Source: Prochlorococcus marinus str. MIT 9313 (GTDB taxonomy: Bacteria > Cyanobacteriota > Cyanobacteriia > PCC-6307 > Cyanobiaceae). Taken from it: 64,000 bases of DNA. Made by a program: the position numbers and the translations under genes. The notes under the pieces are model-generated. The model saw only the letters and a list, made by a program, of their open reading frames with translations, was not told where the DNA came from and ran no database searches. Shown piece by piece: positions 36,232 through 40,555 of this stretch. Position 1 is the stretch's first letter. Each line of letters starts with the position of its first letter. The stretch is from positions 1 to 64,000 of the forward strand of contig NC_005071.1 in NCBI RefSeq assembly GCF_000011485.1. Reading direction: 5' to 3'.

Positions 36232-36442
36232 GATGCGCTGGTTGCTGCTTGGTTTGCTGTTGTTTGGTCTTGGTACCGGATTGCGGAATGGTTGGTTGGT
36301 GGTGCATTGGAGTCAGTTTTTGCGCGATGCCGGGTTGACATTTATCGATCCAGAGAAGCCCTTTAATTGGAACGAGTTCATTCTTGGTGGTCCGGATCGG
36401 GAACGTTCAACAACTAAGGAAAATTCGTCTGTGAGACCTTGA
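36230..36442 (+). CDS. Small single-pass membrane protein, unknown
   Basis: A 70-residue protein with one N-terminal transmembrane segment (about residues 3 to 20, RWLLLGLLLFGLGTGL) and a polar tail that includes DPEKPFNWNEFILGG. I believe a similar short ORF accompanies pdxA in marine picocyanobacteria, from memory. Two ATGs are adjacent (36230 and 36233). It overlaps the pdxA start by two bases and the 3' end of the epimerase-like gene by 29 nt. Function is not known; the overlap at both ends makes coding status less than certain. Confidence 0.6.
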   Translation: MMRWLLLGLLLFGLGTGLRNGWLVVHWSQFLRDAGLTFIDPEKPFNWNEFILGGPDRERSTTKENSSVRP

Positions 36443-37334
36443 AACCTTCTGCCAGATAACAGTCTCTAAGGCCGGATTGATAGTTGGGATGCATCAGGGA
36501 ATAGCCAAGCTCGCGGCATAAGAGCTGATTGCTGACCCTGCGATTCTCTTGCCAGAAGGAGAGTGCCATGGGATTCATCTGTGCAGCGGCAACTGCAAAT
36601 GGCTCAATTTCGGGTAAGGACTTTCCAAGTAGTTGGGCGGCGAACCCGAGTACGTCTGTATAAGCTGTTGGCAGGTCATCGGTGACGTTGATCACGATGG
36701 GTCGCTGTCCATCAGCAGCGCATTGGATTAGGTGCAGGATGGCGCCTGCAATGTCATCGACATGAATTCTTGAAAACACTTGGTTGGGCTTATGGATCAT
36801 TCTGCTTTGACCTGTGTTGACGTTTTTAAGCACTGAGCGGCCTGGTCCGTAGATGCCAGGCAGTCGCAGAATCTGCAGGGGTAATCCCGAAGCTTGCCAG
36901 GCCTCTTCACAGGCCAATCTTCTTTTGCTCCGTGCTTGTTGAGGCTGAGGGTGATCGATTTCTGTGACCCAGCGTCCTTGGCGATCTCCGTAAACCCCTG
37001 TGGTGGAGAGATAGCCAACCCATTGCAATGGCAACGCTCTGAGCTGGTCGCCCAAGCATGTCAGTACTGGATCTTTCCCATCGGCTGCTGGCGGTATGCA
37101 GCTGAGTAAATGCGTGACTCCTTCTAGAACTTTTGTGGCTGGCAACAGCTTGGTGGCACTATCAAATGCGATGTCTGCGTCTGGGCTGTTGATGTCTCTG
37201 CGGCTGCAGATAGCAGTGCTGCCAAGTGCTCTCGCCAGAGCCACTACATGCTGGCCACTGAATCCTCCACCGAGAACCAGCAACTTTGAGCCGGTGGGGA
37301 GAGGCGGACTCCGCTTGACAAGCTCTGTGAGCAT
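36414..37334 (-). CDS. NAD-dependent epimerase/dehydratase-like protein
   Basis: A 306-residue extended short-chain dehydrogenase-like protein. The N-terminal nucleotide-binding loop is LVLGGGFSGQHVVALARAL, and the middle has GYLSTTGVYGDRQGRWVTE and LRLPGIYGPGRSVLKNV, typical of YeeZ-type SDR relatives of sugar epimerases. The usual catalytic Tyr-x3-Lys is not clear (there is VYGDRQG instead), so catalysis is uncertain. Its 3' end overlaps the small membrane gene on the plus strand by 29 nt. The substrate is unknown. Confidence 0.82.
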   Translation of the reverse strand: MLTELVKRSPPLPTGSKLLVLGGGFSGQHVVALARALGSTAICSRRDINSPDADIAFDSATKLLPATKVLEGVTHLLSCIPPAADGKDPVLTCLGDQLRALPLQWVGYLSTTGVYGDRQGRWVTEIDHPQPQQARSKRRLACEEAWQASGLPLQILRLPGIYGPGRSVLKNVNTGQSRMIHKPNQVFSRIHVDDIAGAILHLIQCAADGQRPIVINVTDDLPTAYTDVLGFAAQLLGKSLPEIEPFAVAAAQMNPMALSFWQENRRVSNQLLCRELGYSLMHPNYQSGLRDCYLAEGFKVSQTNFP

Positions 37335-37595: not shown

Positions 37596-37997
37596 TTAGG
37601 CCAGCTGGGGCATCCATTCTTCATCTTGGCTGATAACAGGAGCTTCTCTATGGTTGGTTTGGGTCCATTGAAGCAGCCTTAAAGCCAGTCTGAGATCGCC
37701 ATCCATCCAGGCGCGGATGGCCATTGCGCGTCGCGGATCATAGAAACGTTGGCGCCTATACCACTCGAAGGCATCGGCATCTGATTTGTGACCGTTACAG
37801 GATAGACAGGCTGGAACGCAGTTTTGAGTAATACTTAAGCCACCGCGACTGCGAGGCAAAATATGGTCAATTGATTCAGAAGGTTTGCCGCAATAGATAC
37901 AACTTTGAGCGGTATAGTTGTGAAGGGATTTTCTCCATCTTCGCACACGTAATTTGGGGCAGAGATCTTCGAGGAAAACCGCGTCCCTATTGTGCAT
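37596..37997 (-). CDS. HNH endonuclease
   Basis: A 133-residue HNH (His-Me finger) nuclease. Zinc ligands are Cys33/Cys36 (CIYCGKP) and Cys64/Cys67 (CLSCNGHKSD). The catalytic core is IDHILPRSRGG (Asp44-His45), Asn59 and His70. The remaining C-terminal part is helical and basic (RRQRFYDPRRAMAIRAWM). Small HNH proteins like this are common in cyanobacteria without a known substrate. It is divergent from the SNF2 ATPase gene with 155 nt between them, which is noted as a finding. Start ATG at 37997. Confidence 0.88.
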   Translation of the reverse strand: MHNRDAVFLEDLCPKLRVRRWRKSLHNYTAQSCIYCGKPSESIDHILPRSRGGLSITQNCVPACLSCNGHKSDADAFEWYRRQRFYDPRRAMAIRAWMDGDLRLALRLLQWTQTNHREAPVISQDEEWMPQLA

Positions 37998-38152
37998 CTG
38001 AGTTTCTCGGTTTTGTGAAGTGTGCCGCGCATGCTCTTTGAGTCAATGTGTCTAAATATCTATTTTGACTTGCTTTGCGCTGCTTTTTACAGTGGTTGCT
38101 TTCGCGCTTGCTAGTAAGGCAATGGGGCGTAAATTAGGTGTTCTCTTGAGCA

Positions 38153-39781
38153 GTGAAGTTCACGCCTAAATCGTCTTCCAGCTGTTATTTGGGTCTGACT
38201 GCGGCGGGTTTGGTCAAGGTGACGTTCCCTTTCGATGCGGTCACTCAGGCTCAGCTTCGCAAAGTGAGGCCTCGTGGAATTTGGCGTGGTACTCGCCAGG
38301 GCTGGGAATTTCCTTTGGTTGCGGCTCAACATTTGCAGAGGCAGTTTGGCTCACGTTTTTTGGTGCAGGATGACTTGGCTCAGTGGCTGAGTTGGTTCGA
38401 ACAGCCTTTGCCACCGATGCCGCCCCATCGCGATCTCGTGAGCTATGCAGACCTTGAGGTTGTTTTGACAGATGGTCGTAGACCTCTTCCGCATCAGTGC
38501 TCTGGAGCCCGTTGGTTGTTGGCGCGGCGCGGTGCAGTCTTGGCTGATGAAATGGGTCTTGGTAAGACTCTTACCTCTCTTTTGGCGGCTCGCGCGATGG
38601 TGAGATGTGCTGATGTACGGGTCATGGTGGTGGCGCCGGTGGGTCTTCATGACCACTGGCGTATCGAAGCTGCAAGTCTTGATTTGCCGGTGTGCATCCA
38701 TAGCTGGGCTCGTTTGCCTAGGGAATTGCCGGCGGCGGGAACGCTTCTGTTGGTGGATGAAGCGCATTTCGGCCAGTCCATCAAGTCAAGACGAACTCAG
38801 GCTCTTTTAAGGCTTGCGCGGCATCCGCGTTTAAGGGCTATTTGGTTACTCACCGGGACGCCGATGAAAAATGGTCGTCCTGATCAGCTTTATCCACTGC
38901 TGGCGGCCATTGATCATCCTTTGGCTCGAGATCAACGCAAGTTTGAAGAGCGTTTTTGTCAGGGTTACTGGCGAGATCAAGGTGGACAGCGACGCTGGCT
39001 TTCACGTGGTGCGAGTGATCTCGATGCTCTAGGGAAGCTCACACGGCCATTGGTTCTGCATCGACGCAAGCAGACTTTGCTTGGCTTGCCCCCAAAACGT
39101 CGTCAAGAGCATCGGGTTGTTCTTACAGAGTCAGAGTCTCGTGGTTTTGACCATCGTCTCGCTCTTGTCACTGACAACTATCGCCATCGTGTTCAGCAGG
39201 GTTTGGTGCGTTCAGATGCGGAATCGCTGGCGGTGCTTACGGCTTTGCGTCAGATTGCAGCGGAGTTCAAGCTGCCAGCAGTGGAGACTGTTGTGGCAGC
39301 ACTTCTTGCTGAGGGGCAAGCCGTTGTCCTTTTCAGCAGTTTTGTTGGTCCTTTGCTGCTTTTGCAGCAACGCTTAGGGGGTGAGTTGTTAACTGGGCGT
39401 CAGCGTCCAGGCCAGCGTCAAGAAGCTGTGAATCGTTTTCAATCAGGGATGAGTTCCCTTTTGTTGGCAACCTATGCAGTAGGCGGGCTTGGTTACACCT
39501 TGCATCGCGCTAGGCATGTGGTTTTGCTTGAACGTCACTGGACACCTGGTGATGTGGATCAGGCTGAGGATCGTTGCCATCGATTGGGGATGGATGGTGG
39601 ACTCACGAGTCACTGGTTCCAACTGGGTTTTGCAGATCAGCTGGTGGATTCTCTGATAGCAAGTAAGGCCGAGCGGATTGAGGTATTGCTTGGTTCTCGT
39701 CGTGTTGGACTCAAGCGTCAGCCTTTGCCAGTCATGTTGAGATGTTGCATGCAGGAGTCTTTACGCACGGTTAGTTCGTGA
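38153..39781 (+). CDS. SNF2-family ATPase with HARP-like N-terminus
   Basis: A 542-residue superfamily 2 DNA translocase. ATPase motifs: I ADEMGLGKTLTS (Lys138), II LLLVDEAHFGQS (DEAH at 202-205), III WLLTGTPMKNG, V ATYAVGGLGYTLHRARHVVL and VI DQAEDRCHRLGM. The first 80 residues contain VKVTFPFDAVTQAQLRKVRP and GTRQGWEFPLVAAQHLQRQF, a pattern resembling the HARP domain of SMARCAL1-type annealing helicases. That reading is from pattern memory and is moderate. The start is GTG at 38153. It converges on a lipoprotein-like gene with a 64-nt overlap and is divergent from the HNH gene. Confidence 0.88.
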   Translation: MKFTPKSSSSCYLGLTAAGLVKVTFPFDAVTQAQLRKVRPRGIWRGTRQGWEFPLVAAQHLQRQFGSRFLVQDDLAQWLSWFEQPLPPMPPHRDLVSYADLEVVLTDGRRPLPHQCSGARWLLARRGAVLADEMGLGKTLTSLLAARAMVRCADVRVMVVAPVGLHDHWRIEAASLDLPVCIHSWARLPRELPAAGTLLLVDEAHFGQSIKSRRTQALLRLARHPRLRAIWLLTGTPMKNGRPDQLYPLLAAIDHPLARDQRKFEERFCQGYWRDQGGQRRWLSRGASDLDALGKLTRPLVLHRRKQTLLGLPPKRRQEHRVVLTESESRGFDHRLALVTDNYRHRVQQGLVRSDAESLAVLTALRQIAAEFKLPAVETVVAALLAEGQAVVLFSSFVGPLLLLQQRLGGELLTGRQRPGQRQEAVNRFQSGMSSLLLATYAVGGLGYTLHRARHVVLLERHWTPGDVDQAEDRCHRLGMDGGLTSHWFQLGFADQLVDSLIASKAERIEVLLGSRRVGLKRQPLPVMLRCCMQESLRTVSS

Positions 39782-40131
39782 CGCACCATCGGATCAGCTG
39801 ACGTGCCTTGTTGATTCAGAAGCTTTAGGCCTTTGGAGACATCTTGACAAGCCAAATTGGTTTGGCCAAGCAGGGTGTAGATCAGTGACCGGTCGTTGAG
39901 TGGTTCAGGGTCGTTTTGATGTTGGTTCACTACGCTATTGCAGCGCAGTAGGGCTTGGTCGAGTCCTTTGAGGTCAAGATTTTCCAAGCAAGCTTGGGAC
40001 GAGATATTCGATTCAGCAGATGGATTGGTTGGTGCTGAGCGACTGTTGCAGCTAAGACCGGAAAGCAGCAATCCGCTCAGACATAGTTTGGCAAGGAAGC
40101 GAGGGAATTTAATAGCTGTAGTGCTGCTCAT
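39718..40131 (-). CDS. Secreted lipoprotein-like protein with TPR-like helices
   Basis: With the ATG at 40131 this is a 137-residue protein. An N-terminal hydrophobic segment ends in LSGLLLSGLSCNSR; the Cys could be lipidated, although the residue three places before it (Gly) does not fit a strict lipobox. The mature part has paired helices (LKGLDQALLRCNSVV and SLIYTLLGQTNLACQDVSKG) resembling TPR units. Function is unknown. It overlaps the SNF2 gene 3' end by 64 nt and its own start overlaps the end of the upstream DUF6554-like gene by 23 nt, suggesting coupled translation. Confidence 0.68.
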   Translation of the reverse strand: MSSTTAIKFPRFLAKLCLSGLLLSGLSCNSRSAPTNPSAESNISSQACLENLDLKGLDQALLRCNSVVNQHQNDPEPLNDRSLIYTLLGQTNLACQDVSKGLKLLNQQGTSADPMVRHELTVRKDSCMQHLNMTGKG

Positions 40132-40555
40132 GATCTGTACTTGAAGGAGTGGTGGTGTTGGTATTACCAGAGCTATAGGAGTCGATGACAGTCTCATCAC
40201 CACTTACTTGATCAGCTCCAGATGAAGAGCCTTTGTTACCTCCGTAGAGATCACCAAGGTATTGACCGCAGTTTGGATAATTGCTGGGTTCATTGACCAC
40301 TGCTTCAGTAATTAATACGGCAGCATGCTTTGGTGAGGTCTTGAAAAGGCTATTTCCCTGGCGTTTGATTAGGGCATAAGAGGCAGTCCAGCTCACCTCA
40401 TGGTTATTGCCATTACTACGCATGAAGCAGTAGATCTGGGCTCCTTTGCTTGCGGCATCAGTTGTTGCTGACTGGGCAGCTGTGGCAGAAAGACTGATTC
40501 CCACAAGGCCTAGCAGTGTGAGTGAAAGGGCAACTCGATTTCGATTTCGATTCAT
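40109..40555 (-). CDS. DUF6554-like secreted protein
   Basis: A 148-residue protein with a clear signal peptide (residues 1 to 27, LSLTLLGLVGISLSATAAQS). The mature part contains GAQIYCFMRSNGNNHEVSW and SLFKTSPKHAAVLITEAVV, then YPNCGQYLGDLYG; two cysteines could pair. I recall this pattern as DUF6554 of marine picocyanobacteria, function unknown. The C-terminus is Ser/Thr/Asn-rich. ATG 40555 is preferred to 40564 because the signal peptide then starts with basic residues. Confidence 0.72.
   Translation of the reverse strand: MNRNRNRVALSLTLLGLVGISLSATAAQSATTDAASKGAQIYCFMRSNGNNHEVSWTASYALIKRQGNSLFKTSPKHAAVLITEAVVNEPSNYPNCGQYLGDLYGGNKGSSSGADQVSGDETVIDSYSSGNTNTTTPSSTDHEQHYSY

Follow-up and report, generated by a model that had tools for sequence, protein, structure and literature searches.

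The first 64,000 bases of the single-contig genome of Prochlorococcus marinus str. MIT 9313 (2,410,873 bases), hereafter the window, contain a small HNH endonuclease gene lying back to back with a SNF2 ATPase gene, which raises the question of whether the two products form a split counterpart of ZRANB3 that acts on stalled replication forks, or are neighbors for some other reason. A sequence-only reading had proposed the former, and had described the ATPase N-terminus as HARP-like. Both open reading frames are real on the evidence of their Pfam matches, and their positions bear out the divergent gap of 155 nt between them. The features of the locus are as follows.

36414..37334, minus strand: neighbor resembling NAD-epimerases (putative label), bounding the HNH-SNF2 pair on the HNH side
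37596..37997, minus strand: HNH endonuclease gene, 133 aa (PF01844, E 7.7e-10; PF14279, E 4.4e-9)
37779..37901, minus strand: HNH core, residues 33-73 (CxxC ... DH ... N ... CxxCN)
37998..38152, no strand: divergent intergenic interval, 155 nt
38153..39781, plus strand: HARP-like/SNF2 ATPase gene, 542 aa, with an uncertain GTG start (PF00176, E 6.8e-23; PF00271, E 5e-11)
38186..38347, plus strand: HARP-like (HARP/UvsW/XPB-type) domain, residues 12-65, ordered strand-strand-helix-strand-helix and bearing PFDAVT...W.FP (profile and fold comparison)
38477..39697, plus strand: SNF2 motor core, residues 109-515 (Pfam, alignment motifs and an INO80 fold match)
39718..40203, minus strand: convergent neighbor, putatively 'TPR' (our label), whose 3' end overlaps that of the SNF2 gene by 64 nt

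The 542-residue protein belongs to the SNF2 family, having both SNF2 and Helicase_C Pfam domains and intact ATPase motifs (DEMGLGKT, DEAH and QAEDRCHR are invariant, or nearly so, in the family alignment). In a full AF2 model (pLDDT 82.7), the motor superimposes on the INO80 ATPase (8oo7_G; VIA Z 27.2, rmsd 2.5, 366 aligned) and on CSB (9hwg_b; VIA Z 25.6, rmsd 3.1, 410 aligned). A 1106-codon open frame far off in the same genome encodes one further SNF2-family protein.

The N-terminus is not a formal Pfam HARP domain, as a scan with that model (PF07443; gathering score 25 bits) returned no match in the window protein or elsewhere in its genome. Because Pfam HARP missed the window protein, we built an alignment of 26 members, comprising orthologues and distant relatives, in which sub-threshold HARP matches occur in two distant SNF2 relatives that belong to other lineages of the phylum (E 0.011 and 0.013). 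Both matches sit at the N-terminus (residues 21-50 of L042 and 19-49 of L043), and the best HARP scores among the SNF2 relatives, at 15.7 and 15.4 bits, lie below the cut-off. A HARP search of the phylum yielded two proteins, L050 and L052, that have two HARP-type repeats and no motor, and whose full-length scores (31.8 and 32.5 bits) exceed the Pfam cut-off. In hhalign comparisons, a profile of 23 family N-termini matched the repeats of these two proteins with an E-value of 2.7e-5, which fell to 1.3e-6 once distant SNF2 relatives were added; when 65-residue segments were tiled along the whole SNF2 protein, scores against HARP were confined to those that overlap the N-terminal domain. The family motif reads GLIKV.FPFDAVT....LR.IRPRG.W......WEFP, and Pro26 and Trp51 are the sole invariant columns in 34 rows spanning the family, distant SNF2 relatives and HARP repeats; few residues precede the domain, and these are poorly conserved. 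By profile homology to accepted HARP domains, then, the N-terminus is HARP-like at superfamily level, and to this extent the original description holds. The tandem proteins (L050:1165-1815, minus strand; L052:1096-1662, plus strand), which come from other lineages of the phylum, share the HARP-type domain with the window protein but lack its motor. A sequence search of the PDB with a bona fide HARP protein returned no relative, although the crystal structure of the SMARCAL1 HARP domain (4o66) exists.

Folded alone, the N-terminus is predicted to adopt the order strand, strand, helix, strand, helix (pLDDT 81.8). The match to the SMARCAL1 HARP crystal was weaker (4o66_C; Z 3.5, rmsd 3.1, 55 aligned), ranking under the accessory domains of T4 UvsW (1rif_A; Z 5.9, rmsd 2.1, 61 aligned), which was the top neighbor in VIA-align 2, and of archaeal XPB (2fwr_C; Z 5.6, rmsd 2.1, 55 aligned). 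All of these matches are weak (Z <8), with unrelated eIF1-like folds interleaved at Z 5.0-5.5. Foldseek found nothing under E 0.6 for this model in the PDB, its top rows being non-significant XPB chains; against viral models the best E-value was 0.004, and two lower-ranked matches with SMARCA-like or HepA-related names were too weak for use. Taken alone, the structural result is suggestive of a HARP-like domain, and it is consistent with the sequence profile. A paper on HLTF states in its discussion that UvsW itself has one HARP domain, at the N-terminus (PMC4666394).

Together these features suggest that the SNF2 protein looks like a minimal HARP-type fork remodeler, confined to one picocyanobacterial family. 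HARP-type fork remodelers are best known from animals and phage T4. The window protein resembles the SMARCAL1/HARP annealing helicase of human and fly in that a HARP-like domain directly precedes the SNF2 motor, an arrangement near the minimal active unit defined in animals, where a region spanning one HARP domain and the whole SNF2 motor is enough for annealing-helicase activity (PMC4035279); fusion of HARP domains also confers this activity on other SNF2 proteins (PMC4035279), and enzymes of fork reversal are described as needing a junction-specific domain together with a motor (PMC4666394). Unlike vertebrate SMARCAL1, which has two HARP domains, the window protein has one, and that below the Pfam cut-off. 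The N-terminal domain of UvsW is the best structural neighbor, and it too lies before the motor; unlike UvsW, however, the window motor is of the SNF2 family by Pfam, and the two domains align at just 8% identity.

Since XPB chains rank high among the structural neighbors of the N-terminus and head the non-significant Foldseek rows, and SNF2 motors such as CSB serve comparable roles, the protein might instead be a lesion- or transcription-coupled translocase with XPB-type damage recognition, rather than a fork remodeler. We regard this as unlikely, albeit the strongest of the alternatives, given that the fork-regression enzyme UvsW scores as high (tied with XPB), that sequence profiles tie the domain to HARP, and that the motor belongs to SNF2, not to the XPB type. 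Next in standing, and also unlikely, is that the HARP-like fold is incidental in a RapA-like SNF2 protein associated with transcription or the chromosome. The weak structural evidence for the N-terminal domain leaves some room for this, and for many bacterial SNF2 proteins no function is known to have been tested, but the NCBIfam RapA match is marginal (E 5.9e-5, far under the cut-off) and the HARP profile match is specific to the N-terminus.

The 133-residue HNH protein likewise has an intact catalytic motif (PF01844, 39.2 bits against a cut-off of 21.4), with C33, C36, D44, H45, N59, C64, C67, N68 and K71 invariant in its core. Orthologues occur in 131 of the 151 genomes sampled from the picocyanobacterial family. 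Outside the family, the closest HNH relatives that these searches detected are cyanophage HNH endonucleases (e.g., of S-EIVl and S-H34), at ~37-41% identity over 70-80%. Relatives occur in 249 phage records, chiefly of Synechococcus phages, and the HNH protein is probably related to the cyanophage enzymes. Unlike them, it is fixed in the chromosome and vertically inherited, with conserved N- and C-terminal parts of its own. Several streamlined genomes that lack the SNF2 gene encode at another site a second HNH paralogue of greater divergence (57-63% identity; e.g., G136:C1:19048-19386 and G117:C1:919922-920266), and some of these matches contain an internal stop.

How far does the arrangement of the two genes speak for a shared task? 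The SNF2 gene was found in 105 of the 151 family genomes, and in 104 of these, spanning some 40 genera, it is the divergent neighbor of the HNH gene (66-281 nt between matches, median 163), the one exception lying at a contig end. The pairing, which the sequence-only reading had noted in a single genome, is therefore no one-strain accident. Loci of up to 12 kb were nevertheless compared across 60 genomes with the pair and 18 with the HNH gene alone, and gene order proved constant wherever contigs reach, running ppiB-efp-accB-pdxA-epimerase-HNH-(SNF2)-(TPR)-DUF-abrB-AGX-cbiD (the labels are ours, putative and based on sequence, and here and there a small flanking gene escapes detection). As every gene in this 12-kb block is equally adjacent to its neighbors, the pairing is weak evidence of joint function, and we rejected conserved adjacency as proof of it. 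More generally, where a whole neighborhood is frozen, 99% adjacency in a single bacterial family reveals little about function.

Twenty-five family genomes keep the HNH gene and lack the SNF2 gene, and in the 18 such loci examined, the HNH gene holds the same block position. Its zinc-binding and catalytic residues are intact in SNF2-less genomes, and the median ratio of HNH to PdxA divergence is similar without (0.64) and with (0.59) the SNF2 gene (p 0.86), which suggests that the HNH protein works without its neighbor. The reverse arrangement, SNF2 without HNH, was never clearly seen, the one case being on a truncated contig. Both genes are missing from one genome (G025, locus L158), where the epimerase gene adjoins the TPR gene, and from the epimerase locus of one genus (g9). 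We rejected the former as an ancestral empty site, as G025 is nested inside the marine clade in a small three-protein tree. The two genes are thus not invariably retained or lost together, though one lineage lost both, and a single deletion of neighbors explains such a joint loss as well as shared function does.

Beyond the family, SNF2 relatives are distant (only weak ones occur in phages), and a search of 291 genomes of the phylum gave no full-length HNH relative. A wider scan of 84,980 species genomes, from which 80 loci were kept, gave HNH-like neighbors in only two (L169 and L172) by a motif search that could miss divergent HNH proteins. Since both loci carry the same gene block, they belong to the picocyanobacterial family, and the species label on one of them is evidently mistaken; outside the family, this motif search saw no HNH gene beside SNF2 relatives in the kept loci.

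These observations bear directly on the split ZRANB3-like module, in which the SNF2 protein would remodel the fork and the separate HNH protein would nick the junction, both acting together. Like ZRANB3/AH2, the locus encodes both an SNF2 motor and an HNH nuclease; unlike that single chain, it does so in separate reading frames on opposite strands, here and throughout the 104 paired genomes, and zinc-finger or clamp-binding parts are absent by Pfam. The breadth of the divergent adjacency, the restriction of both gene families to the same taxonomic family, the clean joint absence in a genome nested among pair-bearers, and the near-total want of SNF2 without HNH all speak for joint action. Against this, the flanking genes are all equally conserved, the HNH gene persists without relaxation where the motor is gone, and the motif search saw no HNH neighbor beside HARP-SNF2 relatives elsewhere. 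Pairing within a frozen, collinear block lends no support to joint function, and we consider this module improbable. More doubtful again is its fullest form, in which the divergent genes would encode a two-protein system of fork remodeling and cleavage, a bacterial counterpart of ZRANB3 in separate chains, from which streamlined genomes could dispense with the SNF2 part.

It is simpler to read the locus as a fork remodeler next to a nuclease that acts independently, and this is the view to which we lean, with measured confidence: the SNF2 protein would be a HARP-type fork remodeler auxiliary to RecG, and the HNH protein an independent nuclease kept in place by the frozen block. Here, the HARP/UvsW-like domain of ~55 residues would recognize a DNA junction and direct the SNF2 double-strand translocase, which may then re-anneal or branch-migrate stalled forks and other branched DNA by annealing or fork reversal. 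RecG exceeds its family cut-off in 10 of 11 family genomes tested, SNF2-bearing or not, so that the SNF2 protein would be an auxiliary, lost in streamlined Prochlorococcus, rather than the sole fork remodeler. The small HNH nuclease would act independently in the cell, and stay beside the SNF2 gene through inheritance of the block. A version of some 540 residues, kept across marine and freshwater picocyanobacteria alongside RecG, would offer a simple bacterial test of what HARP contributes to a SNF2 motor, with the loss in streamlined Prochlorococcus as a natural comparison. G025 had no RecG match over the cut-off; as this genome is 95% complete, the absence may be a gap.

Finally, that the genes are part or remnant of a restriction or defence system, as the co-occurrence of SNF2 and HNH genes in predicted restriction operons (PMC2292703) and weak, partial PADLOC matches to the ZorD, DpdE and DrmD motors and HNH models might hint, is very improbable and was rejected on family cut-offs and location, since the similarity is at motor level only, the SNF2 protein falls far below every NCBIfam defence cut-off tested (Zorya, DISARM, Dpd), the restriction operons are other operons, no methylase or other defence partner lies among the locus neighbors, and a fixed place in a housekeeping block across the family is the opposite of a mobile defence island.

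Several smaller observations concern the gene boundaries. An element, GTCAATGTGTC, lies upstream of the HNH gene at ~38041-38054 of the window and recurs in six freshwater loci (L096, L106, L108, L111, L116 and L117). On the HNH strand it includes, by eye, a TTGAC that is absent from the promoter-scan output and is possibly the -35 box of a candidate HNH promoter. On the other side of the interval, the true start of the SNF2 gene is uncertain, because the GTG at 38153 is not kept even in orthologues that are 84-85% identical. In 21 of 57 SNF2 orthologues, no ATG, GTG or TTG occurs from the upstream in-frame stop to a conserved Cys codon, in the region of 38080-38200 of the window (L072, L073, L076, L078, L079, L082, L083, L085, L086, L087, L089, L091-L093, L102, L124, L127 and L128, among others), and two of these (L085 and L092) also lack such codons ahead of the PFDAVT motif. 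This Cys is present in most orthologues, encoded by TGT or TGC. Translation from a non-canonical start codon, or by some unusual mode of initiation, is possible on this pattern.

At the 3' end, the SNF2 stop is displaced in the clade of the window, such that the gene enters its convergent neighbor by 64 nt (39718-39781), while in most relatives it comes earlier. The conserved codons that follow the stop in those relatives reflect the overlapping convergent gene; readthrough at in-frame stops near their C-terminus was accordingly rejected in favor of a normal stop followed by antisense codons. In another cyanobacterial family, a SNF2 relative (L045, ~525-1515; also L041) has its DEAH motif interrupted by an apparent intein (Intein_splicing, E 5.3e-7, which misses the curated cut-off), and in L045 an open frame of 290 codons resembling DUF559/zinc-finger endonucleases (593-1462; E 4.1e-16) overlaps this intein in a different frame.
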